Positions 1-29,741 of a stretch of 64,000 bases of DNA are shown here, piece by piece. Positions within the stretch are counted from its first letter, which is position 1. The number at the start of each line of letters is the position of its first letter. Location of the stretch: the NCBI RefSeq assembly GCF_030540765.1, contig NZ_JAUOEL010000010.1, forward strand, positions 62,001 to 126,000, written 5' to 3'. The notes beneath the pieces are model-generated. The model searched no databases, was not told the DNA's origin, and worked only from the letters and a program-made list of their open reading frames with translations. The translations under genes were made by a program, and so were the position numbers. This DNA comes from Flavivirga jejuensis. Its GTDB lineage: Bacteria; Bacteroidota; Bacteroidia; Flavobacteriales; Flavobacteriaceae.

Positions 1-3000
1 TCAATGAGTTGATCAGGAGTCTGAGTATTTCCAATTATTTATCTATAGAAGAAAATAAACTCGTAGTTTTTAAAGATACACTAAAGCTTTTTAAGTTAGA
101 AGAAACATTTAATTCTGCAAAAGAAGCGTATCCAGATTATACAGCTTATTTTAATTTATTAGAAGCTTGTTTAAAATCGTTTGAAGGTATTCTTAAAGGA
201 ACGATTCGATCTACTGATATTATTTTCCCAGAAGGGAGTATGGATTTAGTGGCTGGAATTTATAAAAAGAATGAGCACGTTGATTATTTTAATAGACTGC
301 TATGTCAATTAGTAAAAACAGCTGTAAAAAACAGCATTGCTAATCTTGAAGAAGGCGAAAAATTTACCCTATTAGAGGTAGGGGCAGGAACAGGAGGAAC
401 TAGTGAATTGTTATTCGAAGTTTTGAAAGAATTTAAGGATCATATCCGATATATCTATACTGACATATCAAAGAGTTTCCTCATTTATGCTGAAGATAAA
501 TATAGAGATGTTGCGACTTATCTTGAAACTACACTTTTCAATATTGAAAAGACTCCCGTTAATCAGGGGATAGATTTTGGTACTTGTGATATGGTAATAG
601 GAGCCAATGTTGTTCATGCTACAAAAGATATTAAGACAAGTATTAGTAATATTAAGAGTGTCTTGAAAAAAGAGGGTATATTATTACTTAATGAGCTCGC
701 AGAGACAGAAATGTTTTTTACTTTAACCTTTGGTCTTTTAGAAGGTTGGTGGTTATATCAAGATAGCGAACTAAGGCTTGAAGGAAGCCCCGGATTACCT
801 GAAGAGAATTGGAAAAAAGTATTTACTAATACAGGGTTTGATAACGTTGTTTTTTATCCTCAGAACGAAAAAAGTACTCAACAAATTATAGTAGCTAAAA
901 GCGATGGGGAAATTGAAATTTCTTCAGAATTAGAACAAGAAACAGAATCAAAACATACCAAAAAAATAGAAGATTCTAATTTTTCTTCAAATACTAAATT
1001 AGTTCAAAATGCAGAAAACTATTTGAAGGAGATTATTAGTAGGGTATTGAAACTGGATAAAGATAGAATCAATACAAAGGCTGATTTTGGGTCTATGGGG
1101 ATAGATTCTATTCTGATAGGAAGTATTACCAAAGAAATTTCTGAGGATTTTCCTGAACTATCCGCATCTGTTTTTTTCGAATACTTAACTATTAATGAAT
1201 TAGCAAGTTATTTTGTTGAGGAATATGAATCTTTTTTCAAGAAAGAAGATAATAATGGAGATCTATCAACTATAAATGATGGATTAAAAATGAAAGAATC
1301 CCAATCTCTTAAATTTTCCAAAAGAAAACGATTTTCTTCAAAAGCAATAAACTCTTCGGAAACCAATAAAAAAAATGTTGTAACAGTTGCTCCTAAAGAG
1401 CAAGAGGTCAAACAACAATATGAAACTGTCGATTCTGAAAAATTAGATGTCGCAATTATAGGTATGGGAGGGCGTTTTAGTTCAGCTTCAACAGAAGAGG
1501 AGCTTTGGGATAAAACAATTTCTAATTCACAATTAAAAGTCGACGGTTTAAATGCGGAAGTTTCTTATGGGAAATTAGCGGATTTAGAATATGAATCTGT
1601 ATGCGCTACACTAAACCTAAGTGAGTTCGATTTATCAATGATGTCGTTTCAAGAACGATTAATTTTTGAAGAGTTGACCAAATCAATGCTTAAATATGGG
1701 GTGAAAAAAGAAGATTTGTCTTCTAAACCGACCGGAGTGTTTTTAGCAGCACAACAACAAATTTATAAAGGTGGTACTGGAGATAGTTTTTCATTAGTTC
1801 ATCTTATTCCAAATAAAATCTCCTATCATTTAAATTTAAAAGGACCAAGCGAATTTGTTAATACTGCTTGTACGAGTAGTTATGTAGCTATTCACAGGGC
1901 AATACAAAGTATGGCATCGGGTGAGTGCGAACAAGCTATCATAGGCGGTATTAATGTTATTTCACCTGAAGAGATGTCGATAGAAATTTCGGAATTTAAC
2001 GAAGTGTTTAGTAAAAAAGGATATACCTTAAGTTTTGGTGATAATGCTGATGGTTATGTGCGAAGTGAAGGCGTAGGAGTTCTTATTATTAAGTTATTAG
2101 AACATGCTAAGAAAGAAAATAATCAAGTTTTAGGAGTGATAAAAGGAAGTTCGGTATTTCATGGAGGAAAAGGATTTTCTTTTGATGCCCCTAACCCTAA
2201 AGGGCTTAAGAATGTCATAGAAAAAAGCTTGATGAAATCTAGTATTCCAGTTGATACTATTGATTACGTGGAAGCCCATGGAATAGCGAATCGTATTGCG
2301 GATGCTATGGAATTAGAAGCTATAGATTCAGTATATAAAAAGTATTCTAAAAACCCGAAAAAGAAATGGCATATTGGAACAGTAAAACCTGTTATTGGTC
2401 ATACAGAACTAGTTTCGGGAATAGCTTCAATCATTAAGGTTTTAAAAGCTTTTGAGCACAAAATGATTCCTGGTATTGCAGGTTTAGAACAAATAAATAC
2501 GGAGCTAAATCCGAATCATTCTTTAGTTTTTAACAAACAATCCCAATATTGGGAAAATGGAAATCATCCCAGACGAGCTGCATTAAATAGTTATGCTGTT
2601 GGAGGAATGAATGCTCATATTGTATTGGAAGAATATTCGAAACCGGGAGTGGATAAAGAACCAAGAAATAGCACTTTTGAGGAAAGGAAAGGCGAAAATC
2701 GAACGAATCAAGAGGCAAATAATCGAGAAAGTTTACAAAATAAAATAAAGTCTATTGCGGAAGATACTTTTGAGATAAAAATGGAAGCTCTTGATTTAAG
2801 TTTATCTCCTATTGATTATGATTTTGATTCTGTAAAAGTGATCCAATTTGTTCGTAGAATTAATGAATATTTTGAAGTAGAGGTTAAAATGGGACAAATT
2901 TTAAGTGCTGATGATTTCGAATCGGCATTTAATATCATTGAAATGGCAATCACCAATTTAAATGGCAATGTAGATGAAAAAGAAAAGGAGAAAAAAACAC

Positions 3001-6000
3001 TTCCAGAAAAATATCCATTGTCTGAAGGACAGAAAGGGCTATGGCATATTCAATTATTTGATCCTAATTCAATTGTCTATAATGTTCCTGTTGGTTTATG
3101 TTTGAAAGGAGATATTGATGCGGATTTAATTTATAAGGTTGCAGAGCATATATTGGAAGCTTACCCCGCTCTTCGAGTTGTATTTGCTATGGATGCTGAG
3201 GGTGAATTATTTCAAGAATTACGACCTGCTAATGGACTATTGTTGCAAGATGTTCAAGAATTAAAAGACGATGAAAATAGTAACGATGTTTTCAAAAGAC
3301 TCTTACACACCCCTTTCGATTTGTCAAAAGAAGTCATTCGTTTGCATGTTCGAATAAATAAAAGGGAACAAAAAACGTATGCACTATTTGTTATTCATCA
3401 TGCTGTCTTTGACGGTACTTCATTCACACCGTTTATTTCGATGTTTACGAAATCATTAAAGCAATTAAGAATGGGGAATTCGCTCTCTAAGAATCGTGCT
3501 TCAGATAGGACTTATTTTGACTTTGTTGCCTGGGAAATTGATTATATCCAAAGTAAACAAGGTCTTGAAGATTTGTCTTATTGGCAGGAAAAATTAAGTG
3601 GTGATATAGAAAAACTAAGTTTACCATATGATCATGTGGATGAGGAGGCTCTAGAAGTATATGAAACCAATGGTATTGAAAAAATTGAATTAGATGGAGA
3701 ACTATTAAAGGTCTTAAAATCCAACGCCAAATCTTTAAAGGTAAATCTATCATTATACTTGTTAGTTGCTTTCAAAATCTTACTTAATCGGCTGACTAAT
3801 CAAGAAGATATTTTAGTTACGATGCCAACTAGCGGTCGTCCCAAAGAAGAATTTGAAAAAGGTATTGGGTATTATGTAAACATGATGCTTACTCGAACTG
3901 AAGTTTCTGGAGAGAAAGGTTTTTTGGATGTGCTAAAGGCATTAAAATCTGAGTTCATGGTTGCTATAGACCATCTTAAATATCCGTACCCGAAAATGCT
4001 AACAGAAATAGGGTTGGTAAAAGGAAGTGGTGATACGCTTTTTTCTACATCATTTATTTATCAAAATATTTTTGATGAGACTTTAAATTTAAATCCTGAG
4101 GCAGAAGTTCGTTTTATGGATAGTGTACAGCAGGAAATTATCAATGAATATTCAATGGAAATTCTTGATTTAGAGGAACAATTTACCATCCAAATAAAAT
4201 ATAAGAAAAAGTTGTTTTCTGATAGTTCTATCAAAAGACATCTTGAGTATTATAAAAGAATACTAGAAGCAACGATTACGAATCCTAACATAAAGGTGAC
4301 AAATGTTAAAATGTTATCTGAAAAAGAAGAAAGTCAACAGTTATATGTATGGAACGATACTAAAGTAACTTACCCTAAAGGAAAGAGTATTCATGAGTTA
4401 TTTGAAACGCAAGCGAAACAAACACCTAATAAAATTGCTTTAATGTTTGAAGGAACGGCATTAACGTATGAAGCATTAGAATTTAGAAGTAGAAAGCTTG
4501 CCATTTATTTACAAAACCGAGGTGTGAAGACCGAAACTTTGGTGGGTATCTTTATGGAACGATCAATTGAAGTTATTGTAACAATACTTGGTGTACTAAG
4601 ATCGGGAGGAGCATATGTTCCGATTGATTGCGATTACCCGAATGAGCGAATTAACTATATAGTAAATGATAGTATTGTAAATGGAAATGACGAAAACGCC
4701 ACAAAATTAATACTCACTCAAGATTACCTTAAAAAAGACCTTGTAAATACCATAGAAAATCAGAATATAGAGGTGTTTTCAATAGCATCGGATTGGAATG
4801 ATAATGAAATAATCCTGAATACGACGGAAAATTTAAAGTCGGTTGGTACACCTAATAATGTGGCATACATCATGTATACTTCGGGGTCTACTGGGCAACC
4901 GAAAGGTGTTGTAGTTGAACATAAAAATGTTGTTAGGTTAGTTAAAAACTCGAATTTTTATGCGTTTTGTTCTGAAGACGTTTTATTAACTACAGGTGCT
5001 CTTTCATTTGATGCCACAACAGTTGAATTTTTTGGACCTCTTTTAAACGGAGGAAAATTAGTAGTATCATCCCGCGAGGTTCTTTTAAACAATCAATTAT
5101 TATCTCAAATAATTATTAAAAATAATGTGAATATTATGTGGTTTACTTCTGGTTGGCTAAACCAGATAGTAGAAGCGGATTGCGATTTGTTCAAAAACTT
5201 AAAAACGGTTTTAGTTGGAGGAGAAAAATTATCTCCAAAACATATTCGCGAATTAAAAAATAATTGTCATGATTTAGAAATTATTAATGGCTATGGTCCA
5301 ACGGAGAATACGACATTTTCATTAACTTATAAAATAGAAGAAGTCGACGATAGTGATATACCAATAGGGAAACCAATTAACAATACTACAGCTTATATCC
5401 TAAACGATTCAAACAAACTTCAACCCGTAGGCGTTTCAGGAGAATTATGTCTTGGAGGAGATGGTGTTGCACGAGGGTATTTAAATAGACAAGATCTCAC
5501 TGATGAAAAATTTATTAGCAATTTTTTTGATAAAGGTAGGTTATACAAAACTGGAGATTTGGCTCGATGGTTGCCTGATGGAAATATTGAATTTATTGGA
5601 CGAATTGATAATCAGGTAAAAATTAGGGGATTTAGAATAGAGTTAGGAGAAATAGAAAATGCAATCAACAATCATGAGCATGTACAAAGTAGTGTTGTTA
5701 TAATTAAAGATTATAACGGCAGCAAGAATTTGATTGCTTTCTGTATTCTTGAAAGAACAGAATTGAACGTTCCAGGTCTTAAAGATTATTTATCGAAAAC
5801 TCTTCCAGACTATATGATTCCGGCATCTATAGTGCCTATTGAAGAGATTCCATTAACTGTTAATGGAAAGATAGATAGAAAGGCATTATTGAATAGAAAT
5901 ATTGAGGTTTCTAGAGAAGCTAAATTTATTTCACCAACAACAGAAACCGAAGAACGATTAGCCGAAATATGGCAAGAAATCTTGAGTATTGATCAAGTAA

Positions 6001-9000
6001 GCCTTAATGACAATTTTTTTGAACTTGGAGGACATTCTTTATTAGTTACTAAGTTACTTTCAAGAATTCATAAAAAATTCAATGTTGATTTAGAACTATC
6101 TAAGCTGTTTGATTTTCCTGATTTACAAGGGCTTGCTAAAGAGGTGGATAGTAGTCAACTTAAGTTGTTGCCTCCTATAACTATCGTAGAAAAAAGAGAG
6201 CAATTACCTTTATCTTCTGCGCAACAACGGTTATGGTTTTTGGCGGAAATAGGACAAGGAAATCGATATCATGTGCCTGCAAAATTTCGTATTAAAGGCG
6301 CATTAAATATTCATGCATTAGAGCAAAGTTTAGTTTATTTAATTAATCGGCATGAGAGCCTTCGTACTACTTTCCGTAAAAATGATAGTGAAAATGCTTT
6401 TCAGCATATTGATTCTAATGCAATGATTGATGTTGTAATTGTAGATTGTACTAAATTTTCACTACAGGAGAAAGAGAATGAAACTCAAAAGTTATTTAAA
6501 TCATTAGTATATAAGCCGTTTGACTTGTCTAAGGGACCGTTATTGAGATTTCTAATTATAACACTTGATAAAGATGAGTTTCTATTTGGTTTATGTATGC
6601 ATCATATTATTTCGGATGCTTGGTCAATAAATATAATGTTTAGAGAACTAAACGAAATTTATGCTGCTTATATAAAAGGAAATTCTCCAACACTTAAACC
6701 ACTTCCTGTTCAGTATATAGATTATACCATGTGGCAACATGACTTGTTTAAGAATGATTTGTTTTCTAAAGGGCTTGCGCATTGGGTATCACATTTAAAG
6801 AATTATACAAATCTTTCACTACCTCAAGATTTTGCTAGACCGCAAATTTCAAGTGGAAAAGGAAAAAGATTGACTATAGAATTTGAGGCATCTACTTTAA
6901 ATCAATTAAAACAGTTTAGTGTTCATTCAGGAGGAACATTATTTACTAGCTTAATGACTGGTGTTTATATTTTATTACATAAGTATAGCCATCAAGATGA
7001 TATCTGTGTTGGAGTTACTGCTGCTAACAGACCTCACTCGAACTTAGAAGATTTAATAGGGTTTTTTATTAATACACTGGTTAATCGAATACAATTTGAT
7101 CAAGATGATACATTGCTTGATATCTTTAAAAAAACACACCAAGAACTAATTCGTAGTCAAGAATATCAAAACATACCTTTTGATAGAATAGTTGATGCCA
7201 TTCAGCCTGAAAGAGATACAGCTCGAACACCAATATTTCAGGTCATGGTAAACTATGCAAGTATCGATGAACCGTTAGAATTAAAAGAGTCTACCGTTGT
7301 TTTTGAGCCTTTAGAATACAATGCTTCGAAGTTTGATTTGACATTTGACTTTTCAAACAACCCAAAAAATGATTCATTGATTTTATCGTTGGAATATAAT
7401 ACGGATATTTTTAGTGAAGACACTGTAAAACGATTCTTAATCGACATACAAAGCATATTAACATCCCTACCAAAACAGCAGGATAGTTTATTAAAAGAAT
7501 ATAGCTTTTTAACGAAGAAAGAACAATATAAGCTATTAGAGAATTTTAATGTCACAAACATAGCCTTTCCAAAAGATCAATGTATTCACAACATCTTTGA
7601 AACGCAAGCCAAACAAATTCCAAATAACATTGCTTTATCCTTCGAAGATGAAGAAATAACATATAAAGAATTAGAATACCGAAGTAAAAAACTAGCACTT
7701 TATTTACAAAAACAGGGCGTAAAACCAGATACATTAATAGGAATTTGTATTGGGCGATCTATAGAAATGGTCGTTGCTATTTTAGGTGTTTTAAGATCGG
7801 GTGGAACATATGTCCCAATTGATCCAGAATATCCGCAAGACCGAATTAACTATATGCTTAATGATAGTGTACTGTCTGGCAACGATGAAAATGCAGTGAA
7901 ATTTGTAATTACTAATTCCAATTTAAAGCAAAATATATTAGAGGGTTTTGAAGAACAAGGTGTTAAAGTAATTTCGTTGTTTGAAAATTGGAAAGAAAAT
8001 AAGTTCCTATTAAGTGTAAGGGGGAAATTAAAACATATGAGTAGCCCCAATAATGCGGCATATGTTATTTATACTTCCGGATCGACAGGAAAACCAAAGG
8101 GTGTCATTGTTGAGCATAGAAATGTAGTAAGTCTACTTAAAAATAAAGAAAGTCACTTTGACTTCAATGAACAGGATGTTTGGACCATGTTTCATTCTTT
8201 TTGTTTTGATTTTTCGGTATGGGAAATGTATGGAGCCTTATTGTATGGAGGTAAATTAATTGTGGTACCAGAAAAAACAACTAAAAACCCTAGTGCCTTT
8301 GCACAACTGTTATTTGAGAAAAAGGTTACTGTATTGAACCAAACTCCAGGAGCATTTTATTTACTTCAGGAATTATATCTTTCAACGTATTCCGCTACAG
8401 ATATTAGATATATCATTTTTGGAGGGGAAGCCTTAAGCCCGTTAAAACTTCAAGAGTGGTATAAAATACATCCTCAAAGTAAATTAATTAACATGTACGG
8501 TATTACAGAAACGACTGTTCATGTAACTTTTAAGAGGATTCAAGAGGCAGAAATAAACTCAGGTATTAGCAATATAGGAAAAGCCATACCAACATTAAGT
8601 TGCTATATATTGGATGCTGCGCAAAATGTATGTCCAATAGGCATACCAGGAGAATTGTATGTTAGTGGAGTAGGTGTGGCTAGAGGCTATTTGAATCGTC
8701 CAGAATTAACGCAAGATCGATTTATACAAAACCCATTCAAAGAAGCCTCAAGGTTGTATAGAACAGGAGACTTGGCCCGATGGCTCTCTAATGGAAATAT
8801 GGAGTATTTAGGAAGAATAGATAATCAGGTTAAAATAAGGGGCTTTAGGATAGAACTTGGGGAAATTGAAATGCAATTGCAATTCATGGAAGCGATTCGA
8901 GATGCTGTTGTTTTGGCAAAGTCGGTAGAAAATGGGAAAAAAGAATTGATCGCTTACATTGTATTCAAAGATGCGGAGCGCTCTACCGCAGAGATTCGTG

Positions 9001-12000
9001 ATTTTTTATCCAAGAGCTTACCAGATTATATGATTCCAAGCCATTATGTTCAATTGGAACATATTCCTTTGACTCGTAATGGTAAAGTGGATAGGAAAGC
9101 ACTGCCAGATATTGATGGTTCAGGAATTTCAAGTGGGGTGGATTATGTAGCTCCTAGAAATTCCATAGAAAAGGAAATTGCTCAAATTTGGCAAGCACAT
9201 TTTTCATTAGATCGTGTCGGAATAAAAGATGATTACTTTCAGTTAGGAGGAGACTCCATAAAAACGATTCGTCTTATAAGTATTCTAAATAAGTCGTTCA
9301 ATATAGGATTTCCAATAGTGTCGTTTTATGAGAACCCAACTATAGAAGGGATGGCCTATTTTATTTCTCAATCTTCAGATCAGGTAAAGGATATAAGGCA
9401 ATTAAAAGAAAACATAGACAAAACCATTGCCGATATAGAAACGTCTGTTAAGGATAATCATCCGCAACCGCATAATATAGCGAATGTATACCCTATGAGT
9501 GACATACAAACAGGTATGATATACACTAGTGAGTTGATGAGAGAAAATAATGAATTAGGGGTATATCATGATCAATTTGTATTTCAATTTAAAGCCTTAG
9601 ATATTCAATTGTTAACAAGAGCTATGGAGTTAATGGTTGAAAAACATGAGACTTTAAGAACTTCATATCACCTCTACGACTTTAAGAAACAGGTTCAGAT
9701 TATACACAAGAAAGCTCCTGTTAATATAGAAGTTGAAGATATTAGTAAATTGACTCAGGAGGAAATACAAATCCATATTCAAAAATTCTTAGAGCACGAA
9801 AGGATACAAAATCCGTTTGATGTCACTAAAGCGCCTAATTGGCGAATACACATTTTTCAAATTGCAGATTCAGATATTATTTTGACTTTCCAATTTCATC
9901 ATGCCATGTTCGATGGATGGTCGGAAAAGAATTTTAGGGTTGAATTATTTGAAACTTATAAAGCATTAAAGAAAAATAAAGCCTACCGTCCTGTCACATT
10001 AAAATCTAGCATGTATGACAGTATTGTTTCAGATTTTATAGAATCGAGAAATGAAGCTAATATTTCGTTCTGGAAAAATAAGATTTCTGATTATAAGCGC
10101 TTGGATATTTTTACTGACAATCAGACTAGTAATCGACTGTTTAAGAAGTATGACAAGCGTTTTACAAGTAAGGTGTTAAGTAAGTGTAAACAGGATAATA
10201 TTGAACCAAAAACATTATTCATTGCTGGTTATGTCTATATATTGAACTTACTGTCATCACAGGAAGATATAACGGCTGGGTTAGTATCACATAGACGTCC
10301 AATTATTGAAGATGGCGATAAATTATTGGGTTGCTTTTTAAATAGTATTCCTTTTAGATTCAACATGCTTCTTTCCAAAGGATGTACTTGGATAGAATAT
10401 ATAAGGCTCATTGCATCAGAATTACAAGAATTAAAAGGAAAAGATAGACTTTCATTAAATGAAATTTCGGTTATGGCGAATGAAAATTATTCGAGTAATC
10501 CGTTTTTTGATGTGTTGTTTAATTATGTAGATTTTCATGTACTTGATAAATTTCAAGATAATGAAGAGGTGCATTCAAGTCAATCGGAAAATCAAGAAGA
10601 AGATATTTCGTTACTGGGTTTTGAAAGAACGAATACACATTTGGATATTACCGTAAGCCTTACTGGAAAAGAAATAATGATTTTAATTAATCAAGAAAGA
10701 GACTTAAAATCGGGACATCAATTGAAAGATTTGGTCGCATATTTTGAGACCTTTTTTAATAATTACTTACTACATGATGGTAAACATGTTAACAGCTTAG
10801 ATATTATTTCAAAATCCGAAACCCAAAAATTGTTATATGATTTTAATAAAACAGAGATACTATTTCCTGAAGCTAATAAGTGTATCCATAAGCTATTTGA
10901 AGTACAGGCAAAGCAAACTCCTGATAACATAGCTTTATCATATGAAAATACTGAAATAACTTATAAAGAATTAGATGAACGCAGTAAAAAACTAGCGTTA
11001 TACTTACAGAAACATGGCGTAAAACCAAATACACTGGTAGGTATTTGCATGGATCGTTCTATTGAAATGATTATAGGGATATTGGGAATTTTAAAATCCG
11101 GAGGCGCCTATGTTCCAATTGATCCTGAATACCCAGAGCAACGTAAAAAGTTTATTGTTTCAGATAGTGTTACAGATAAAGAATACGGAGCTGGTATTAT
11201 AATTTCACAAGAACATTTAGGTGAATCAATTAGAGATATTACAAAAGAGTTTGGCGTTAGAGAAATAGTGTTATCACCTAATTGGGAGAAAAATCAATCC
11301 ATTCTTAAAGTAAAAGGAACCCTGAAAAACGAAACGACCTTTAATGCGTTGGCTTATGTTATATATACATCAGGATCAACAGGAAAACCTAAAGGGGTAC
11401 TAGTAAAACACGAAAATGTTACTAATCTTTTGAGATCTCAAAAGTTATATTTCCAAGTTGAAGAAAGTGATCAGTTTTTATTGTTTTCTAATTTTTCCTT
11501 CGATGCTAGTGTTGAACAAATGTATCTTGCTCTATTGAATGGGGGGACTTTACATTTAATTTCTTCAAAGGATATATTAGATATGGAGCGGTTCTCAAAT
11601 ATTCTTAAAAATAAGAAAATAACACACCTCCATACCACCCCATCTTTTATGAGGGAACTCCCATATATACCAGATTCATGTCTTAAGAGGTTGATTTCAG
11701 GTGGCGATGTTTTTGATGAAAAAATATTTGCTAGATGGGGAGACAAAGGCGTAAAAATAATCAATGAGTATGGTCCAACAGAGACGACCGTAACTTCAAT
11801 TCAAAGAGAGATAGCATCAGATGAGAAAAATATTGGAAAACCAATAGGAAATACTTTTTGCTATATCATTGACGCTAGTCATAATATTCAATCTGTAGGT
11901 GTTCCTGGCGAATTATGTATAGGAGGGAAAGGCGTTACAGCTGGATATTTAAATAGGCAAGAGCTAACACAAGAAAAATTCATCAAGAACCCCTTTAGAG

Positions 12001-13448
12001 ATGGCATGCTGTATAAAACAGGAGATCTGGCAAGATGGTTACCCGATGGTAATCTGGAGTTTTTAGGAAGAATAGATGATCAAGTTAAAATAAGAGGTTA
12101 TAGGATTGAGTTAGGAGAAATAGAATATACGCTAAACCAACATGGAAGTATTCAAAACAGTGTTGTTATTGCCAAAGAACATCTTGGGACTAAACAATTG
12201 GTAGCCTATAGCGTTCCCGCTATTGAAGGAGAAAAAATTGATCCTCATTTGATTAAAGAATTCTTGTCGAGAAGTCTTCCAGAATATATGATTCCTTCCT
12301 TTATCATTTCACTTGACATGATTCCGTTAACAACCAATGGTAAAATAGACAGAAAAGCATTAAATCGAAAAGAATTAGAAATAGCCAGTGTCCATGCGTA
12401 TGTCGCACCTACAACTAAAATGGAATTAAAATTGGTTGAGATATGGCAAAAGGTATTACATGTTGATCGAATAGGTATTCAAGATAATTTTTTCGAATTA
12501 GGCGGACATTCTCTACTCGCAATTCAGTTGATTCAACATATTCGAAATGATTTAAATAAGCCATCTTTTATGTTGAAGGATTTCATCTCTACGCCAACAA
12601 TTAAGAACCATGCGTTATTGTTGGATAATTCCAAAGATAAGAGGCTAGACCCGCATTTGATTGTATTTAATCAATTAGAGGATACAAGTTCTAATGCAAG
12701 CGGCACCTTTATTATACCAGGAATGCCAGGAATCGTTGATGGTTATGAAGCATTGGCGGAAAAATTTGCAGAAAACAACAACTCGGTTTATGGGATACAA
12801 ATGCAAGGCACATTGAATGGAGATGCTTTTTTGAAGACCCTTGAGGAGCAGGCGGCTCATAACACTAATATCATCAAGAAACTAAATGTTCGTAAAGTAA
12901 CCCTTGTAGCCCATAGTTATGGAGGATTAGTCGTTAATGAAATGGTTGTACAACTTGAAAAAGAAGCCATTGAGGTAGAAAAAATTGTTTTGCTAGATAG
13001 CTATATAGAACTTCCAAAAGTAACTGTTGAAGAAGAAGTAAAGTCATTATTTCTGATGTTATCTGGGAATCTAAACCTGTCTCTTGATACAGATGAAGTC
13101 ACTGCGTTTTCTGAAAAAATTAGTAATAAATCAGGGAAAGCCAAGCAACAATTAATGTATGATTTTCTTCTTGAAAAAGGAGTTAATGTTAATAAGGCAT
13201 TTTTCTTCAATATCATTAATATATATGATAATGCTATGAAGATGACCTATGAATTATCTTCGAATTTAACGCATAGCATTGATGTAATCAAAGCAAAAAA
13301 ATCCTACTCGGATGATCCTACACTAGGTTGGGCACCATATTACAAATCGGTGAATGTTATTGAAACAGAAAGCGATCATTTTGGATTGATAAAAGAGCCT
13401 TTTGTTAGTCGGTGGATCAATGAATTGGTATTGAATAATAAAAAATAA
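1..13448 (+). CDS. Hybrid trans-AT polyketide synthase / nonribosomal peptide synthetase, 5'-truncated by the window edge
   Basis: The reading frame is open to the left edge (codons AAT GAG precede the TTG at 9), so the N-terminus lies outside. Numbering residues from base 9, the domains are: C-methyltransferase (about 60-300, SAM motif LEVGAGTGG near 122); ACP (Ser367); ketosynthase (about 478-880, Cys621, His757, His798); ACP (Ser941); condensation (about 1000-1430, HHAVFDG from 1130); adenylation (about 1461-1952); carrier (LGGHS, Ser2010); condensation (HHIISDAW from 2198); adenylation (about 2525-3026); carrier (LGGDS, Ser3083); condensation (HHAMFDGWS from 3297); adenylation (about 3625-4111); carrier (Ser4168); thioesterase (HSYGG, Ser4303; His4457). 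No AT, KR, DH or epimerase domain is visible. By alignment to GrsA the three adenylation codes are DAVWLGGTFK (valine-like), DFWNIGMVHK (threonine, exact) and DAEHIGEVTK (unassigned). The expected product is a polyketide capped onto a tripeptide, released by the thioesterase. The product is not identified. Confidence 0.97.
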   Translation, partial: NELIRSLSISNYLSIEENKLVVFKDTLKLFKLEETFNSAKEAYPDYTAYFNLLEACLKSFEGILKGTIRSTDIIFPEGSMDLVAGIYKKNEHVDYFNRLLCQLVKTAVKNSIANLEEGEKFTLLEVGAGTGGTSELLFEVLKEFKDHIRYIYTDISKSFLIYAEDKYRDVATYLETTLFNIEKTPVNQGIDFGTCDMVIGANVVHATKDIKTSISNIKSVLKKEGILLLNELAETEMFFTLTFGLLEGWWLYQDSELRLEGSPGLPEENWKKVFTNTGFDNVVFYPQNEKSTQQIIVAKSDGEIEISSELEQETESKHTKKIEDSNFSSNTKLVQNAENYLKEIISRVLKLDKDRINTKADFGSMGIDSILIGSITKEISEDFPELSASVFFEYLTINELASYFVEEYESFFKKEDNNGDLSTINDGLKMKESQSLKFSKRKRFSSKAINSSETNKKNVVTVAPKEQEVKQQYETVDSEKLDVAIIGMGGRFSSASTEEELWDKTISNSQLKVDGLNAEVSYGKLADLEYESVCATLNLSEFDLSMMSFQERLIFEELTKSMLKYGVKKEDLSSKPTGVFLAAQQQIYKGGTGDSFSLVHLIPNKISYHLNLKGPSEFVNTACTSSYVAIHRAIQSMASGECEQAIIGGINVISPEEMSIEISEFNEVFSKKGYTLSFGDNADGYVRSEGVGVLIIKLLEHAKKENNQVLGVIKGSSVFHGGKGFSFDAPNPKGLKNVIEKSLMKSSIPVDTIDYVEAHGIANRIADAMELEAIDSVYKKYSKNPKKKWHIGTVKPVIGHTELVSGIASIIKVLKAFEHKMIPGIAGLEQINTELNPNHSLVFNKQSQYWENGNHPRRAALNSYAVGGMNAHIVLEEYSKPGVDKEPRNSTFEERKGENRTNQEANNRESLQNKIKSIAEDTFEIKMEALDLSLSPIDYDFDSVKVIQFVRRINEYFEVEVKMGQILSADDFESAFNIIEMAITNLNGNVDEKEKEKKTLPEKYPLSEGQKGLWHIQLFDPNSIVYNVPVGLCLKGDIDADLIYKVAEHILEAYPALRVVFAMDAEGELFQELRPANGLLLQDVQELKDDENSNDVFKRLLHTPFDLSKEVIRLHVRINKREQKTYALFVIHHAVFDGTSFTPFISMFTKSLKQLRMGNSLSKNRASDRTYFDFVAWEIDYIQSKQGLEDLSYWQEKLSGDIEKLSLPYDHVDEEALEVYETNGIEKIELDGELLKVLKSNAKSLKVNLSLYLLVAFKILLNRLTNQEDILVTMPTSGRPKEEFEKGIGYYVNMMLTRTEVSGEKGFLDVLKALKSEFMVAIDHLKYPYPKMLTEIGLVKGSGDTLFSTSFIYQNIFDETLNLNPEAEVRFMDSVQQEIINEYSMEILDLEEQFTIQIKYKKKLFSDSSIKRHLEYYKRILEATITNPNIKVTNVKMLSEKEESQQLYVWNDTKVTYPKGKSIHELFETQAKQTPNKIALMFEGTALTYEALEFRSRKLAIYLQNRGVKTETLVGIFMERSIEVIVTILGVLRSGGAYVPIDCDYPNERINYIVNDSIVNGNDENATKLILTQDYLKKDLVNTIENQNIEVFSIASDWNDNEIILNTTENLKSVGTPNNVAYIMYTSGSTGQPKGVVVEHKNVVRLVKNSNFYAFCSEDVLLTTGALSFDATTVEFFGPLLNGGKLVVSSREVLLNNQLLSQIIIKNNVNIMWFTSGWLNQIVEADCDLFKNLKTVLVGGEKLSPKHIRELKNNCHDLEIINGYGPTENTTFSLTYKIEEVDDSDIPIGKPINNTTAYILNDSNKLQPVGVSGELCLGGDGVARGYLNRQDLTDEKFISNFFDKGRLYKTGDLARWLPDGNIEFIGRIDNQVKIRGFRIELGEIENAINNHEHVQSSVVIIKDYNGSKNLIAFCILERTELNVPGLKDYLSKTLPDYMIPASIVPIEEIPLTVNGKIDRKALLNRNIEVSREAKFISPTTETEERLAEIWQEILSIDQVSLNDNFFELGGHSLLVTKLLSRIHKKFNVDLELSKLFDFPDLQGLAKEVDSSQLKLLPPITIVEKREQLPLSSAQQRLWFLAEIGQGNRYHVPAKFRIKGALNIHALEQSLVYLINRHESLRTTFRKNDSENAFQHIDSNAMIDVVIVDCTKFSLQEKENETQKLFKSLVYKPFDLSKGPLLRFLIITLDKDEFLFGLCMHHIISDAWSINIMFRELNEIYAAYIKGNSPTLKPLPVQYIDYTMWQHDLFKNDLFSKGLAHWVSHLKNYTNLSLPQDFARPQISSGKGKRLTIEFEASTLNQLKQFSVHSGGTLFTSLMTGVYILLHKYSHQDDICVGVTAANRPHSNLEDLIGFFINTLVNRIQFDQDDTLLDIFKKTHQELIRSQEYQNIPFDRIVDAIQPERDTARTPIFQVMVNYASIDEPLELKESTVVFEPLEYNASKFDLTFDFSNNPKNDSLILSLEYNTDIFSEDTVKRFLIDIQSILTSLPKQQDSLLKEYSFLTKKEQYKLLENFNVTNIAFPKDQCIHNIFETQAKQIPNNIALSFEDEEITYKELEYRSKKLALYLQKQGVKPDTLIGICIGRSIEMVVAILGVLRSGGTYVPIDPEYPQDRINYMLNDSVLSGNDENAVKFVITNSNLKQNILEGFEEQGVKVISLFENWKENKFLLSVRGKLKHMSSPNNAAYVIYTSGSTGKPKGVIVEHRNVVSLLKNKESHFDFNEQDVWTMFHSFCFDFSVWEMYGALLYGGKLIVVPEKTTKNPSAFAQLLFEKKVTVLNQTPGAFYLLQELYLSTYSATDIRYIIFGGEALSPLKLQEWYKIHPQSKLINMYGITETTVHVTFKRIQEAEINSGISNIGKAIPTLSCYILDAAQNVCPIGIPGELYVSGVGVARGYLNRPELTQDRFIQNPFKEASRLYRTGDLARWLSNGNMEYLGRIDNQVKIRGFRIELGEIEMQLQFMEAIRDAVVLAKSVENGKKELIAYIVFKDAERSTAEIRDFLSKSLPDYMIPSHYVQLEHIPLTRNGKVDRKALPDIDGSGISSGVDYVAPRNSIEKEIAQIWQAHFSLDRVGIKDDYFQLGGDSIKTIRLISILNKSFNIGFPIVSFYENPTIEGMAYFISQSSDQVKDIRQLKENIDKTIADIETSVKDNHPQPHNIANVYPMSDIQTGMIYTSELMRENNELGVYHDQFVFQFKALDIQLLTRAMELMVEKHETLRTSYHLYDFKKQVQIIHKKAPVNIEVEDISKLTQEEIQIHIQKFLEHERIQNPFDVTKAPNWRIHIFQIADSDIILTFQFHHAMFDGWSEKNFRVELFETYKALKKNKAYRPVTLKSSMYDSIVSDFIESRNEANISFWKNKISDYKRLDIFTDNQTSNRLFKKYDKRFTSKVLSKCKQDNIEPKTLFIAGYVYILNLLSSQEDITAGLVSHRRPIIEDGDKLLGCFLNSIPFRFNMLLSKGCTWIEYIRLIASELQELKGKDRLSLNEISVMANENYSSNPFFDVLFNYVDFHVLDKFQDNEEVHSSQSENQEEDISLLGFERTNTHLDITVSLTGKEIMILINQERDLKSGHQLKDLVAYFETFFNNYLLHDGKHVNSLDIISKSETQKLLYDFNKTEILFPEANKCIHKLFEVQAKQTPDNIALSYENTEITYKELDERSKKLALYLQKHGVKPNTLVGICMDRSIEMIIGILGILKSGGAYVPIDPEYPEQRKKFIVSDSVTDKEYGAGIIISQEHLGESIRDITKEFGVREIVLSPNWEKNQSILKVKGTLKNETTFNALAYVIYTSGSTGKPKGVLVKHENVTNLLRSQKLYFQVEESDQFLLFSNFSFDASVEQMYLALLNGGTLHLISSKDILDMERFSNILKNKKITHLHTTPSFMRELPYIPDSCLKRLISGGDVFDEKIFARWGDKGVKIINEYGPTETTVTSIQREIASDEKNIGKPIGNTFCYIIDASHNIQSVGVPGELCIGGKGVTAGYLNRQELTQEKFIKNPFRDGMLYKTGDLARWLPDGNLEFLGRIDDQVKIRGYRIELGEIEYTLNQHGSIQNSVVIAKEHLGTKQLVAYSVPAIEGEKIDPHLIKEFLSRSLPEYMIPSFIISLDMIPLTTNGKIDRKALNRKELEIASVHAYVAPTTKMELKLVEIWQKVLHVDRIGIQDNFFELGGHSLLAIQLIQHIRNDLNKPSFMLKDFISTPTIKNHALLLDNSKDKRLDPHLIVFNQLEDTSSNASGTFIIPGMPGIVDGYEALAEKFAENNNSVYGIQMQGTLNGDAFLKTLEEQAAHNTNIIKKLNVRKVTLVAHSYGGLVVNEMVVQLEKEAIEVEKIVLLDSYIELPKVTVEEEVKSLFLMLSGNLNLSLDTDEVTAFSEKISNKSGKAKQQLMYDFLLEKGVNVNKAFFFNIINIYDNAMKMTYELSSNLTHSIDVIKAKKSYSDDPTLGWAPYYKSVNVIETESDHFGLIKEPFVSRWINELVLNNKK

Positions 13449-13477
13449 AAGCAAATGTTTAACTTAAATCTAGTCAT

Positions 13478-14335
13478 GTGAAAAAAGTCATTATGTTTCC
13501 TGGTCAGGGATCTCAGTATAAAGGAATGGGTAAAGATCTGTTTGGAAAGTACCCATATGAAACCAAATTAGCCTCAGACATTCTAGGTTATGATATCGAA
13601 GAACTTTGTGTTAATGATCCTAATCGTCAGTTGGTAAAAACGCAGTATACACAACCAGCCATCTATGTGGTAAATAGTTTTTTGTATAGAGAACACAACC
13701 AAGTTCCAGATTATCTTATAGGTCATAGTTTGGGTGAGTATAATGCGTTGTTGGAATCGGGAGCCTTTGATTTTGAAACAGGCTTAAGACTGGTACAAAA
13801 AAGAGGCGAACTCATGAGTGAGGTTTCTGGTGGCGGTATGGCCGCTGTATTAGGGGTGGATATAAAAGATGTCAAACGGAAATTAGCAGCGGATGTATAT
13901 GAACACTTGAGTATAGCAAATTATAATACGCCTACGCAAACCGTAATTTCTGGTACGGAAGCAGATATTAAAGCAGTTGTAAAAGATTTTACTGCACAGG
14001 GCATAACCATAATTCCATTATTTGTGAGCGCGGCTTTTCACTCTCCGTATATGGAGCTAGCGGAAAAGGAATTTTCACACTTCATATCAAACTTTAACTT
14101 TAATGAACTTAAAATTCCAGTTATAGCCAATGTTACTGGACGCCCTTATGAAAACCATTTGATAGTAGATTTGCTTAGTAACCAGATTTCCCGTTCTGTA
14201 TGTTGGAGTGATTCAATTCGTTACTTAATGGGACAAGATGTAAGTGAATTTCAAGAGGTCGGAAAAGTTATGTTAACCAAAATGACTACCGAAATTTGTA
14301 ATAGCTGTAGCCCTATTAAGGAGGGGATTAGGTAG
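13478..14335 (+). CDS. Free-standing malonyl-CoA:ACP acyltransferase (trans-AT)
   Basis: This 285-residue protein is the FabD-type transferase that loads malonyl units onto carrier proteins. It shows the N-terminal FPGQGSQ motif (7-13), the nucleophile in GHSLGEY (Ser84), an Arg in QKRGELM (Arg109) matching the carboxylate-binding Arg of malonyl transferases, and the second catalytic residue in AFHSPYM (His188). It starts with GTG 29 bases after the synthetase stop; an ATG two bases earlier is in another frame and stops at once. Because the neighbouring ketosynthase module has no built-in acyltransferase, this enzyme most likely serves it in trans. Housekeeping FabD is the alternative, but the position directly behind the synthetase argues against it. 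Confidence 0.93.
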   Translation: MKKVIMFPGQGSQYKGMGKDLFGKYPYETKLASDILGYDIEELCVNDPNRQLVKTQYTQPAIYVVNSFLYREHNQVPDYLIGHSLGEYNALLESGAFDFETGLRLVQKRGELMSEVSGGGMAAVLGVDIKDVKRKLAADVYEHLSIANYNTPTQTVISGTEADIKAVVKDFTAQGITIIPLFVSAAFHSPYMELAEKEFSHFISNFNFNELKIPVIANVTGRPYENHLIVDLLSNQISRSVCWSDSIRYLMGQDVSEFQEVGKVMLTKMTTEICNSCSPIKEGIR

Positions 14336-14478
14336 CATAAAGGAAAATACGTGGTGCTACAATTCAATTTATTTATAAATGAAGGGACTATTACGTTTAA
14401 TGTAATTAAAATAATAAAATCAGATATGAGTGAAAAAATGAATTTAAAATCAATTTATACATATGATTTTTGAAAAAT

Positions 14479-16884
14479 ATGGATAAAAAAAGATGTTTAT
14501 TTAAACACATAGCGGTATTAGTTTTTTTCAATTTTTACTTTTTGGGTTTAATGGCTCAAAATGGAGAACTTCAAATACAGTCGGAGGTATCAAAAATTGG
14601 AGTTGTACAAGGCACTATAATTGATAAAAGCGGTAAAGAGCCAGTTGTATTTGCTACGGTTATTATCAAGAATAAAAAAGATAAAAAAATATTAACAGGC
14701 GGAATGACTGATAGTAAAGGGAACTTTAAGGTAAGAGATTTGCCTGAGGGAGAATTTATTTTAGAGATTCAATTTATTGGATATAAGACTGAAACTAAAG
14801 AGTTTTTGATTTCTAGTGGAAATAAAAGATTAAATTTTGGAATAATAAGTATAGAAGAATCAATTCAAGAACTAGATACGGTTAAGATTGTTTTGGAAAA
14901 ATCTACGATCGAACAACGTGTAGATAGAAAAGTAATTAATGTTGGTAAAGATCTGATGACAGCTGGAGCAAGTGCATCCGAAATAATGAACAATATACCA
15001 TCGGTTACTGTTGACAGTCAAAGTGGTAATTTGAGTTTTCGAGGTAATGATAATGTTAGGGTTATGATTGATGGAAAACCGTCAAATTTAAATACCGCTC
15101 AATTGTTAAAACAAATACCTTCCACAGCCATTAAGAAAATAGAATTAATTACGAGCCCATCGGCGAAGTACAATCCAGAAGGAATGAGTGGTATTATCAA
15201 TATTGTGCTTCATAAAAATAATAAATCAGGTCTTAACGGAAAGTTCAATTCAGGCTTAATAAAGAGAGCAAATACTATATTTAATAATTTTGCAGCTCTT
15301 AATTATCGAGGAGAGAAAATAAATGTTTATGGTAATTATTCTAATAATATTGGAAAAAACCTCTTTAGTTCTGTTATAAGCAAAGAAATAGACAATTCGA
15401 CGCAATTTTCTGCATTAAGTTTTGGTAATAATAATCATTTATACAAAATCGGTTTGGACTATTATATTAATGACAAAAAAGCAGTTTCGATTTATACGAA
15501 TCAAACGGTTGCTTCAAGGGAAAATACCATGTTGGCTGATATCATATACAATCTAAATGATCAACCAAATTCTGAATTAGATTTTAATAATAACATAACG
15601 AGCTTTATTGGATCTTATAATTTTATATATAAACAAGAGTTTGATAAAGAAGGACATACTCTAGATATAGAAGCGGATTATAATGCTCTTGATAATGAGG
15701 AAGATGCTGCTAATATTTTTAGTCTGAAAGAAGACTTTAACGAGTTTATTAAAGATAAACGTACAACTACAATAATAAATTTGGATTATTCTAATCCATT
15801 ATCGAAGACTTCCAAATTGGAGCTTGGCGCTGAGTATCGAATGCGTCGAACAACAAATAAGTATTTAAATGATAATGTGCTTTTAAACTCGGAGTATAAC
15901 AATGATCGAGATATTTTATCCGCATATGGAATATATTCTAAAGATTTGGATAAATGGTTTTATCAATTAGGTATAAGAATAGAGCAATATGAAGAAGACA
16001 CATATTTAAACAAAGAAAACCAACCTCATATTGATTTTTCAAACGAAATATTTAACCTCTTCCCTTCGGGGGCATTAAGATATAATCCAAATGATAAAAA
16101 TTCATATCGATTAAATGTAAGCCGAAGAGTAGATCGTCCTAGATTAGATCAATTAAACCCTATTCGCCAATTTGCAAACCTTAGATTTAGACTTATTGGA
16201 AATCCATACTTAAAACTTCAATTTACTAATTCCATAGAATTAAACTATATAAAGCAAATTAAAAAAGGAAGTATAAACACAAATGTTTTTTATAGAAAGA
16301 CTAAAAATGAAATTGCCAGAAATGTATTTCTAGACCCTAATGATTCTAGTGGAGATGAATATATTATAAGTTATCTTAATTATGATGCTAATAATTCCTT
16401 TGGATTAGAGATGTCTTTAAATTATAAACCTGTTTCATGGTGGAATTTCAATGCTGGTTTTGATTTGTATTCAACAAAAATCCAAGGTACTATTGACGAT
16501 GAATTATTTGAAGGAGATAGAACCGTTTTTAATTTTAGATTTAATTCCAACGTTAACATAACCAAAAGTCTAACGCTTTCTGCTTTTATGCTGTATCAAG
16601 GCCCAGACCAGCGATTACAATCAAAAAAAGGGGAGGTATATTTTGTTAACTTAGGACTAAGCCAGACTTTTTTGAATAAAAATGCAACTGCCAATCTCAA
16701 TTTTAACAATCTATTCAGGTCTCTAAATTTCGATTTAGAAACTCATGAAGCTTTAGGAGTATATGGTCGATTTAAGGGAGAATCCAACTTTGTTTCTATG
16801 AACTTTTCTTATCGTTTTGGGAACAGAAAGAATAAGGGGGTATCTCGTAAAAAAAGAGATAAAAAGGAATCTGATAGTAGGTAA
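14479..16884 (+). CDS. Outer-membrane beta-barrel receptor-like protein with carboxypeptidase-like domain
   Basis: The protein has about 801 residues. It has an N-terminal signal peptide ending near LGLMAQ, a carboxypeptidase-regulatory-like beta-sandwich (VVQGTIIDKSGKEPVVFATV onward), a plug-like segment (SEIMNNIPSVTVDSQSGNLSFRG, written here only in part as a landmark) and a long barrel-like C-terminal region ending in a basic tail (KKRDKKESDSR). This order is known from the Bacteroidota outer-membrane beta-barrel family related to TonB-dependent receptors. ATG at 14479 was chosen; a TTG nine bases upstream is in frame but less likely. Its place between the acyltransferase and the MATE exporter suggests a role in moving the natural product or its metal complex across the outer membrane. 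That role is inference. Confidence 0.85.
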   Translation: MDKKRCLFKHIAVLVFFNFYFLGLMAQNGELQIQSEVSKIGVVQGTIIDKSGKEPVVFATVIIKNKKDKKILTGGMTDSKGNFKVRDLPEGEFILEIQFIGYKTETKEFLISSGNKRLNFGIISIEESIQELDTVKIVLEKSTIEQRVDRKVINVGKDLMTAGASASEIMNNIPSVTVDSQSGNLSFRGNDNVRVMIDGKPSNLNTAQLLKQIPSTAIKKIELITSPSAKYNPEGMSGIINIVLHKNNKSGLNGKFNSGLIKRANTIFNNFAALNYRGEKINVYGNYSNNIGKNLFSSVISKEIDNSTQFSALSFGNNNHLYKIGLDYYINDKKAVSIYTNQTVASRENTMLADIIYNLNDQPNSELDFNNNITSFIGSYNFIYKQEFDKEGHTLDIEADYNALDNEEDAANIFSLKEDFNEFIKDKRTTTIINLDYSNPLSKTSKLELGAEYRMRRTTNKYLNDNVLLNSEYNNDRDILSAYGIYSKDLDKWFYQLGIRIEQYEEDTYLNKENQPHIDFSNEIFNLFPSGALRYNPNDKNSYRLNVSRRVDRPRLDQLNPIRQFANLRFRLIGNPYLKLQFTNSIELNYIKQIKKGSINTNVFYRKTKNEIARNVFLDPNDSSGDEYIISYLNYDANNSFGLEMSLNYKPVSWWNFNAGFDLYSTKIQGTIDDELFEGDRTVFNFRFNSNVNITKSLTLSAFMLYQGPDQRLQSKKGEVYFVNLGLSQTFLNKNATANLNFNNLFRSLNFDLETHEALGVYGRFKGESNFVSMNFSYRFGNRKNKGVSRKKRDKKESDSR

Positions 16885-16965: not shown

Positions 16966-18318
16966 ATGAAGATTAAAGCAAATTATAGAAATATATTAGT
17001 TATTGCATTCCCATTAATTTTGGCCAATTTAGCAGTAGGTATAAGCCAAATAATAGATACTGCATTTGTAAATAGGTTAGGTGAAAGCGAGTTGAATGGA
17101 ACAATGTTGGCATCCATGGCTTTAATATTTTATTCTTTTATATGGGGTGGGTTTTCAGAGTATAGTCAAATGTTGGTAGCTCGTAAAACTGGAGAAAAAA
17201 AATATAAAGAAGTTGGAAAGATATTAGATCACATATTACTGTTAGGCATAGTACTGTTACTATTTATTCTTGGTCTGTTTTTTTTAACTAAAAACGGTGG
17301 GTTACAATGGATGGTAGAGAGTGAAGAGATTATTGAAAACACCATAATATATTTGGATGTTATTGCCGTTGGCTTACCTTTTTTTATTCTCAATAGTTTT
17401 TTTGTTGCTTTTTTTTCCGGTCTTGGGCGCACCTATATTGTTACTTATGGGGTTTTAATTACCATAGTAGTAAACCTGGTTTTGGACTATATATTAATAT
17501 TTGGAAATTTCGGATTTCCTGAGTTAGGGGTCTTTGGTGCAGCTTTAGCATTAATAATAGCCCAGATGTGTACCTCGATACTATATATATGCTTCATATT
17601 TAAATTGGGATTGATAAAAAAGTATGCGCTTTTTAAATTTAAAAGCATTGATGTAGTGTTTGTTAAAAGTATCACTTCAAAAACGTTTCCATTAATTGTA
17701 CAAAACTTGTTTTATATCACTGCTACTTGGATTTTTTTCATAATGATTGAAAAAAAGGGAGGGAGCGATTTAAGAACTTCCTATGTCGTACGATCATTAT
17801 ACTTATTTATTAGCATTCCAGCTATGGCAGTAGGTAAGGCGGTGAATACTATAGTAAGTAATTTATTGGGACAAGGCAGGAAAGACCATGTTTTAATCGC
17901 GATTTTTAAGTCGCATCAAATTGGATTAGGAATTAGCTTGCTGCTTTGCGTACTTCTTTATATTTTTCCTGAACTCTTTTTAAATATTTATACGAATGAT
18001 ACTGAGGAAATTGCCAAAGCAATTCCAATACTGCAAACAATCTTAGTGTCAACGCTTTTATTTTCTGTTAGTATGATTAATATGTACGCCATAATAGGAA
18101 TTGGAGAGACTAAAATAATATCCTATGTTGCTGTAATTAGTTTTAGCTGTTATCTGTTATTTGCTTATTATTCCATATTCGAATGGAAGTCAAGTATTAC
18201 AATAGTATGGCTAAGCGAATGGATTAATTGGGGATTATTTACGATACTATCCGCTTCCTATTTTTTATTTTGGAAAATTAGAGTACAAAAAACTAAAGCA
18301 ACATTAATTGAGAAATAG
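16966..18318 (+). CDS. MATE-family multidrug/metabolite exporter
   Basis: The 450-residue protein has about twelve hydrophobic segments and the MATE opening pattern: a first helix with FPLILANLAVGISQIIDTAF, then a charged loop and a repeat of the fold in the second half. MATE proteins expel organic compounds using a sodium or proton gradient. It lies directly upstream of the phosphopantetheinyl transferase with only three bases between them, so the two are almost certainly co-transcribed. The best guess is export of the product made by the upstream assembly line, or self-protection from it. The substrate cannot be read from sequence. Confidence 0.92.
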   Translation: MKIKANYRNILVIAFPLILANLAVGISQIIDTAFVNRLGESELNGTMLASMALIFYSFIWGGFSEYSQMLVARKTGEKKYKEVGKILDHILLLGIVLLLFILGLFFLTKNGGLQWMVESEEIIENTIIYLDVIAVGLPFFILNSFFVAFFSGLGRTYIVTYGVLITIVVNLVLDYILIFGNFGFPELGVFGAALALIIAQMCTSILYICFIFKLGLIKKYALFKFKSIDVVFVKSITSKTFPLIVQNLFYITATWIFFIMIEKKGGSDLRTSYVVRSLYLFISIPAMAVGKAVNTIVSNLLGQGRKDHVLIAIFKSHQIGLGISLLLCVLLYIFPELFLNIYTNDTEEIAKAIPILQTILVSTLLFSVSMINMYAIIGIGETKIISYVAVISFSCYLLFAYYSIFEWKSSITIVWLSEWINWGLFTILSASYFLFWKIRVQKTKATLIEK

Positions 18319-29728: not shown

Positions 29729-29741
29729 AAAAAAACATATT

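Follow-up and report, generated by a model that had tools for sequence, protein, structure and literature searches.

A trans-acyltransferase polyketide synthase–nonribosomal peptide synthetase line in Flavivirga jejuensis with a conserved cupin protein having Asn in its iron motif

Results and discussion

Organization of the assembly line

The 64,000-nucleotide stretch of DNA analyzed here (positions 62001-126000 of contig C2, i.e., NZ_JAUOEL010000010.1, in the genome G000 of Flavivirga jejuensis; hereafter the window) opens with the end of a giant gene joining a polyketide synthase (PKS) to a nonribosomal peptide synthetase (NRPS). We consider it likely that the window holds the C-terminal part of a complete trans-acyltransferase (trans-AT) PKS-NRPS line with the route and product proposed below, a reading that builds on gene order, domains, active-site residues and conservation in related clusters. 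That the line is a trans-AT PKS-NRPS is real and its kind is already known; the extracts of open-access literature searched yielded no described product for it.

An open frame of 4481 residues (3..13448, + strand) runs off the left edge of the window and represents the C-terminal 56% of PKS2, a protein of 7963 residues whose gene starts at C2:51557, 10.4 kb to the left; the cluster lies on C2 of a 6.0-Mb draft genome with 33 contigs. Pfam found one methyltransferase, five carrier stretches, one ketosynthase (KS), three Condensation, three AMP-binding and a C-terminal alpha/beta-hydrolase match in the frame, so that the order proposed in a sequence-only reading of the window, namely C-methyltransferase (cMT), acyl carrier protein (ACP), KS and ACP followed by three modules of condensation (C), adenylation (A) and carrier (T) domains and a thioesterase (TE), was recovered in full. 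The tripeptide part postulated there is borne out by three HHxxxD motifs, the carrier serines GGHS, GGDS and GGHS, and three readable A-domain codes. Because the Pfam Thioesterase score at the C-terminal end (22.5) is below the cut-off of 26.4, the TE, also anticipated in that reading, leans not only on the alpha/beta-hydrolase match but also on its position at the end of the line and the serine motif AHSYGG. The domains in the window are as follows, with cut-off-based or motif-based evidence in parentheses.

1..13448 (+), C-terminal 4481 residues of PKS2, trans-AT PKS-NRPS (open frame; gene fetched leftwards)
372..683 (+), cMT domain, core match (Methyltransf_12)
1020..1211 (+), ACP4 (PP-binding; GIDS serine)
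1446..2483 (+), KS6, a divergent KS with Cys and both His kept, HGIANR (Pfam, motif reading)
2709..2984 (+), ACP5 (ACP match; DFDS serine)
3015..4350, end approximate (+), C1, HHAVFDG (Pfam, motif)
4398..5890, limits approximate (+), A1, code DAVWLGGTFK, Val-like (Pfam, code)
5952..6140 (+), T1 (Pfam)
6195..7538 (+), C2 condensation domain, HHIISDA (Pfam, motif)
7596..9086 (+), A2, code DFWNIGMVHK, Thr (Pfam, code)
9170..9360, limits approximate (+), T2, GGDS at 9246 (Pfam, motif)
9492..10830, end approximate (+), C3, HHAMFDG (Pfam, motif)
10890..12380, limits approximate (+), A3, code DAEHIGEVTK, Arg-like (Pfam, code)
12425..12615, limits approximate (+), T3, GGHS at 12501 (Pfam, motif)
12705..13445 (+), TE/alpha-beta hydrolase domain, AHSYGG at 12909 (Pfam, motif)
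13478..14335 (+), free malonyl-type acyltransferase, putatively acting in trans (TIGR00128, GHSLG, AFHS)

The sequence-only reading held for the window part but was incomplete for the polyketide part, whose two proteins together carry six KS domains (one without the catalytic His) and which is accompanied by a gene for a halogenase-like cupin. With ketoreductase (KR) and dehydratase (DH) domains included, PKS2 has the order KS3-DH-ACP2-KS4-DH-KR-ACP3-KS5-DH-cMT-ACP4-KS6-ACP5-(C-A-T)x3-TE, and three genes lie to its left.

C2:42648-49010, PKS1, 2120 residues, KS1-U-ACP1-KS2-KR
C2:49059-49559, DUF3237 gene, between PKS1 and the cupin gene
C2:49871-51070, Cupin_8 gene, between PKS1 and PKS2

Neither PKS1 nor PKS2 gave a match to Acyl_transf_1, and no AT was found in the 3482 residues of PKS2 that precede the window part (E up to 0.001). 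The separate malonyltransferase that had been noticed after the giant protein is a member of the FabD family (TIGR00128, 287.9 bits with a cut-off of 260.9; motifs GHSLG and AFHS), and in a search of the whole genome, which gave six places with an AT, it was the sole one within the cluster. These findings agree with the trans-AT hybrid as originally read. Nor did the open-access literature searched contradict the remark made there that a product described for this order of modules was not known.

The catalytic Cys-His-His is intact in KS1, KS4 and KS5. Cys and both His are also retained in KS3 and KS6, where the motifs are unusual (HASSS in KS3; HGIANR instead of HGTGT in KS6), and KS2 has lost the His of HGTG (EAEANG in this genome). 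A KS lacking this His is non-elongating, and KS2 should hence merely pass the chain on. The line is irregular also in that the KR and the DH-ACP of one unit are divided over PKS1 and PKS2. As had been noted, no KR is present in the KS6 module, and a beta-keto group is possibly retained in the polyketide; bearing on this claim, the preceding KS5 module, with DH and cMT, is likewise devoid of KR, and modules of trans-AT lines often share or skip reductive steps.

PKS1 further contains an insert of about 330 residues (U; residues ~515-860, L023:6148-7437) between KS1 and its LPGYPF linker. Matches of U in Pfam were at chance level (E 0.25, and 0.0095 for the copy in the related genome described below, both under cut-off), those in NCBIfam (E 0.18 and 0.23) gave no convincing relative, and matches in the PDB, chance ones aside, were confined to the neighboring KS end, linker and ACP. 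We considered U as a degenerate AT or LnmK domain, but it matched neither AT, nor the LnmK-type frames of a second genus (see below), nor other cluster proteins. Relatives of U were confined to the own genome, both in a family draw (1 of 397 genomes) and in a phylum draw (1 of 395), besides the related copy at 82% identity; the two draws overlap, and genome counts given here refer to such sampled sets.

A total of 26 KS matches occur in the genome, with further places on contigs C7, C9, C10, C16, C17 and C33. Contig C33 encodes a protein with two tandem ATs, and on C7 an AT lies inside a long KS-bearing frame; these places perhaps represent one further line of the trans-AT type and one of the cis-AT type.

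Proposed biosynthesis

From the organization above, we infer the order of substrates, the product, the site and type of the cupin reaction, the mode of release and the roles of the phosphopantetheinyl transferase and exporter as follows. The chain would start on PKS1 and be extended on PKS2, for which the free AT (13478-14335 of the window) would supply the malonyl units. The KR and DH domains would introduce double bonds, and one carbon would be C-methylated. The terminal KR of PKS1, together with the KS3-DH-ACP that opens PKS2, would function as one split unit, at which the cupin protein would most likely modify the carrier-bound polyketide, with chlorination favored and hydroxylation possible. 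KS6-ACP would then hand the acyl chain to the three C-A-T modules for addition of Val-like, Thr and Arg-like residues, and the TE would release the product, perhaps as a lactone via Thr. The 4'-phosphopantetheinyl transferase (PPTase) encoded nearby would activate the carriers, and the MATE protein would export the product.

The A-domain codes were read by alignment to GrsA, whose sequence was checked against 1AMU. We take DAFWIGGTFK to be a code for Val, and the assignment of A1 to Val rests on it. The similar DALWIGGTFK stands in the Leu/Ile/Val section of PMC12283262 and DFWNIGMVHK, the A2 code, in its Thr section, while A3 (DAEHIGEVTK) has eight of ten positions in common with the Arg profile given there, differing at positions 278 and 322.

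The cupin protein and its iron motif

The best solved relative of the cupin protein is 8a82_A, with homology over the full length (E 3.8e-87; 143 of 363 aligned residues identical, 39%). The search itself labels 8a82_A as Cupin_8 only, and we take 8A82 to be the structure of OocP/OocQ, with 8a82_A being the oocydin halogenase OocP. This assumption is consistent with the cupin-like domain ascribed to OocP in PMC4552970 and with PMC11260071, where OocP is described as a trans-acting Fe/alpha-ketoglutarate halogenase of the oocydin PKS and a reference to the structure is also given. The cupin protein is probably an Fe(II)/2-oxoglutarate (2OG) enzyme related to OocP, as judged from its sequence.

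The iron motif reads H-L-N-N-D...H in this genome and in its closest relative and H-I-N-N-D...H in three genomes of a second genus (G229, G396 and G804), as compared with H-Q-G-N-D in 8a82_A, which has Gly where the cupin protein has Asn. The third iron position is thus Asn, not Asp or Glu, in all five orthologues, with both His kept. Gly or Ala at this position (HxG/HxA), which would make space for a halide, was sought and found in none of the five; for this reason, we do not file the protein as an OocP-type halogenase, although it may still work like one. A shifted ligand is not apparent, since the Asp two residues on is present in both the cupin protein and 8a82_A. The ratio of nonsynonymous to synonymous substitution rates (dN/dS) between the window genome and its closest relative was 0.06 for the cupin gene, the lowest among the 11 pieces measured. 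Conserved under this constraint and without Asp/Glu, the cupin protein looks functional and carboxylate-free. An iron site described as HxN, 2-His-1-Asn or Asn-ligand did not occur among the open-access literature matches listed, and one may be in print.

We favor a halogenase-like reaction on the carrier-bound chain over hydroxylation, its likelihood appearing to us close to, though below, an even chance on sequence grounds. A broader and more tentative proposal is that the HxN cupin is a carrier-dependent halogenase or other anion-transferring iron enzyme, representing a natural type of site fixed in a clade of marine Flavobacteriaceae, which would be independent of OocQ and chlorinate at the split unit formed by KS2-KR and KS3; the clusters could then yield chlorinated acyl-tripeptides and acyl-tetrapeptides, diversified by exchange of A cores and moved by mobile elements.

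The cupin protein is rare in the genomes sampled: at E 1e-15, only the own genome was hit in the phylum sample (1 of 395), and at 1e-5, six of the 397 family genomes were hit: besides the own genome, two had a match of 74% identity and three a weak one. Among plasmids, a single distant match, a cyanobacterial one, was obtained. This protein, encoded on a plasmid of Planktothrix agardhii (L062:3713-4816), has HxA and not HxD, and its gene lies near genes for a P450, a squalene-oxidase-repeat protein and a phytoene/squalene synthase; it is possibly a halogenase-type protein in a terpene setting.

Related clusters

A pattern search with KS6, using one genome per species (84,980 species), returned one locus, namely in the octocoral metagenome-assembled genome (MAG) EG16N_Bin3; this search detects close relatives only and may leave out records near the own genome. 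A KS6 search at E 1e-80 found the own genome only among 12 genomes of the genus, and among 60 relatives, all carrying some KS, the best match to KS6 outside its own genome had 34% identity. PMC9502895 lists EG16N_Bin3 as Aquimarina sp. and speaks of an Aquimarina MAG from necrotic tissue of Eunicella gazella; the record is titled uncultured Flavobacteriaceae, in keeping with the flavobacterial source suggested earlier for the window. The MAG aligns at 81-93% amino acid identity in seven parts (PKS1, cupin, PKS2 28-1088, PKS2 3817-7962, AT, MATE and PPTase), and the order PKS1-cupin-PKS2-AT-MATE-PPTase is common to both genomes. Residues 1088-3817 of PKS2 (KS4 and KS5) are on neither MAG contig, as the contigs end and begin there. 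The alignment spans C2:42625, 23 bases before PKS1, to C2:81063, just after the PPTase gene, with the TonB receptor of the MAG reduced to its last 77 residues (78% identity).

The genes that follow PKS2 and the free AT in the window are these.

14470..16884 (+), TonB-dependent receptor (relatives in the G396 and G804 clusters; 77-residue remnant in the MAG)
16966..18318 (+), MATE exporter
18322..19062 (+), PPTase
19065..19718 (+), MBL-fold hydrolase, SolJ-like below cut-off (accessory; not beside the MAG cluster)

On the two MAG contigs with the cluster, as far as these were fetched, the DUF3237 and MBL-fold genes had no counterpart; the latter, with a match of only 30% elsewhere in the MAG, is taken as accessory. 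The MBL-fold protein resembles SolJ, with a score below the cut-off (189.3 bits; cut-off 350).

Beyond the MAG, a cupin of 74% identity occurs in two of 396 other genomes of the family and in all three genomes of the genus (g214) to which these belong. Around it, G229, G396 and G804 have the arrangement PKS1'-cupin-PKS2'-PKS3'/NRPS, the contig of G229 breaking off inside the NRPS. In G396 and G804, the NRPS-TE is followed by an AT domain (66% identity) and, ~7.6 kb further, by a TonB receptor, within which the G804 stretch ends; G396 continues with MATE and PPTase genes, and its receptor and MATE relatives have 47% and 53% identity, respectively. At the right end of the G396 cluster (L072:8621-19462), the AT is fused to an NMO-like domain and separated from the receptor by five genes, of which three are of the NHL-repeat kind, one is PQQ-dehydrogenase-type and one YceI; none of this set is in the window cluster, and open reading frames of the same lengths are found there in G804. 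In G396, PKS1' opens with an LnmK-type domain (TIGR04098, 177.9 bits; cut-off 100) followed by an ACP, in the position that KS1 and U take in the window genome; the KS3 unit of G396 lacks a DH within the scanned piece. The peculiarities of KS2 (no HGTG His), KS3 (HA motif) and KS6 (HGIANR) are the same in all four clusters compared (G000, MAG, G229 and G396).

Exchange of the A3 core

Between the window and the MAG, the core of A3 has been exchanged. Over 1350-14352 of the window, the DNA identity is 89.6% outside the following block (11,837 columns) and drops to 53.9% inside.

10848..12016 (+), exchanged block, MAG code DLTKIGEVGK there (DNA identity drop)

The block spans the A3 core including the specificity positions 235 to 331, and its dS is 2.0, as opposed to 0.29-0.59 in ten other pieces. 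The two A3 cores have 29% identity. When the window core was compared with 11 other A domains, G804 not being represented, its nearest relatives (56%) were the DAEHIGKVSK domains from the second genus. Misassembly of the MAG is a possible source of the difference, against which stand the uninterrupted frame of the MAG and the identity of its A3 core to any other A domain compared, at most 32%.

The MAG codes are DAFWLGGTFK, DFWNIGMVHK and DLTKIGEVGK, the last of which we presume to be Asn-like. G396 and G804 have DAFWLGGTFK, DAEHIGKVSK, DLFTILLTYK and DLYTILLTYK, whereas the visible part of G229 has DAEHIGKVSK and DAFFLGCTFK; the peptide parts therefore vary even within one genus. PMC8097286 names the A core as the main target of recombination in NRPSs, and the present case is the same in that the strong difference within the stretch compared is confined to the A core of module 3. 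It is of the kind described, except that the line here is a trans-AT hybrid of marine flavobacteria.

Alternative readings

Several points weigh against the proposed route. In the iron site of the cupin protein, Asn takes the place of the Gly or Ala of characterized halogenases, and an OocQ partner did not emerge, no OocQ sequence having served as a query. KS1 bears the insert U, for which Pfam, NCBIfam and the PDB gave no convincing relative, and the module order does not translate straightforwardly into a structure, given the KS5 module with DH and cMT but no KR and the putative extension by KS6. The C3 domain begins in a manner that we take to be DCL-like, despite which no epimerization (E) domain precedes it. 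Also, the order of the backbone is common to the clusters but the gene set is not, because the second genus has the five extra genes and the AT-NMO fusion.

The most serious competitor concerns the cupin protein, which, somewhat short of evenly likely, could be a 2OG hydroxylase or desaturase with Asn or water at the third iron position, giving a hydroxylated and not a chlorinated product. Asn is indeed neither Gly nor Ala, and AspH, a further point against halogenation, is a natural hydroxylase with two His ligands only and no carboxylate, while an Asp-to-Gly variant of FIH retains some activity (both in PMC10947486). The distant homologues read by eye are divided, two of the four having HxD (G095 and G130), as would suit a hydroxylase, but the other two HxA (G401 and Planktothrix). 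The closest solved homologue, which is the halogenase OocP if our assumption on 8A82 is correct, has HxG. The cupin gene immediately precedes a PKS gene, just as oocQ lies immediately upstream of the PKS gene oocR; according to PMC11260071, joint deletion of oocQ and oocR abolished chlorination. No match to 8a82 was seen for U and KS6 in the PDB among the matches listed (in one case the best 60 of 70).

A product acting as a metallophore, i.e., a PKS-NRPS chelator exported by MATE and taken up as a metal complex via the TonB receptor (14470-16884), appears improbable to us. The receptor and MATE genes do adjoin the AT gene, and related ones lie ~7.6 kb past the AT in G396, with the receptor gene at the same distance in G804, but catechol, hydroxamate or heterocyclization genes were absent among the cluster genes scanned, and the MAG retains at this place nothing but the receptor remnant. 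That the cluster is decaying and without product, the odd KS domains and U being remains, we regard as very improbable indeed. The non-canonical KS2, KS3 and KS6, the DH of the KS5 module without KR and the unassigned family of U could be so explained, but the frames of 2120 and 7963 residues are intact, dN/dS against the MAG ranges from 0.06 to only 0.26 over the 11 pieces (U, 0.25; KS2, 0.15), and the KS signatures recur in every cluster compared.

Relation to known systems

Among lines in Aquimarina, cuniculene is a trans-AT polyketide, and the aquimarins derive from a PKS-NRPS hybrid cluster of strain Aq135 (PMC9323603); going by their description, these resemble the present line as large trans-AT or hybrid lines of marine Flavobacteriaceae. 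Aquimarins have amino-modified C-termini (PMC9860996), in contrast to the TE end here. The oocydin A system likewise has a cupin-type Fe/2OG protein (OocP/OocQ) encoded beside trans-AT PKS genes (PMC4552970 and PMC11260071) but differs in having HxG instead of HxN, and the line here continues with three C-A-T modules and a TE.

The clusters point to a product family in marine Flavobacteriaceae with a readable peptide part, undescribed as far as searched. The conserved HxN cupin is a naturally occurring test case for the difference between iron halogenases and hydroxylases; in the hydroxylase P4H, replacement of Asp by Ala or Gly gave no halogenase (PMC2767507). The pair of window and MAG, in which one A core is swapped within an otherwise 90%-identical part of the gene, provides a model from nature for altering a single residue of such a product.

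A possible recombination tract and mobile elements

KS4-DH and KS5-DH share a tract of 905 bp with 16 mismatches (98.2%; C2:56324-57228 and C2:60659-61563), upstream of which identity is 81.8% over 1436 columns, a figure that omits the first 451 columns, partly less alike. The tract includes the LPVYPFx5W motif along with the greater part of the DH, and may represent a recent conversion or exchange; this motif is proposed as a trans-AT recombination site in PMC11260071.

In the MAG, each cluster contig carries one IS240-type transposase gene outside the cluster (L048:1907-2575 and L050:976-1644, both on the - strand). The two copies are 99.7% identical over 793 bp and have the same orientation relative to the cluster, an arrangement like that of a composite transposon. 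No IS240-type transposase was found on contig C2 of the window genome; to the left of PKS1 there are a phage-type integrase of 193 residues (L023:3533-4114, -) and an RteC gene (L023:1989-2819, +). These elements suggest that the cluster may be mobile.

Neighboring genes in the window

Slightly past the end of the cluster, an arylsulfotransferase-family protein is encoded at 20952-22397, with no sign of cluster membership. Further to the right, a TonB receptor and SusD-like pair (26387-31229) lies near the gene for a hybrid two-component regulator of 1375 residues with propeller, kinase, receiver and AraC-type HTH parts (36538-40665).

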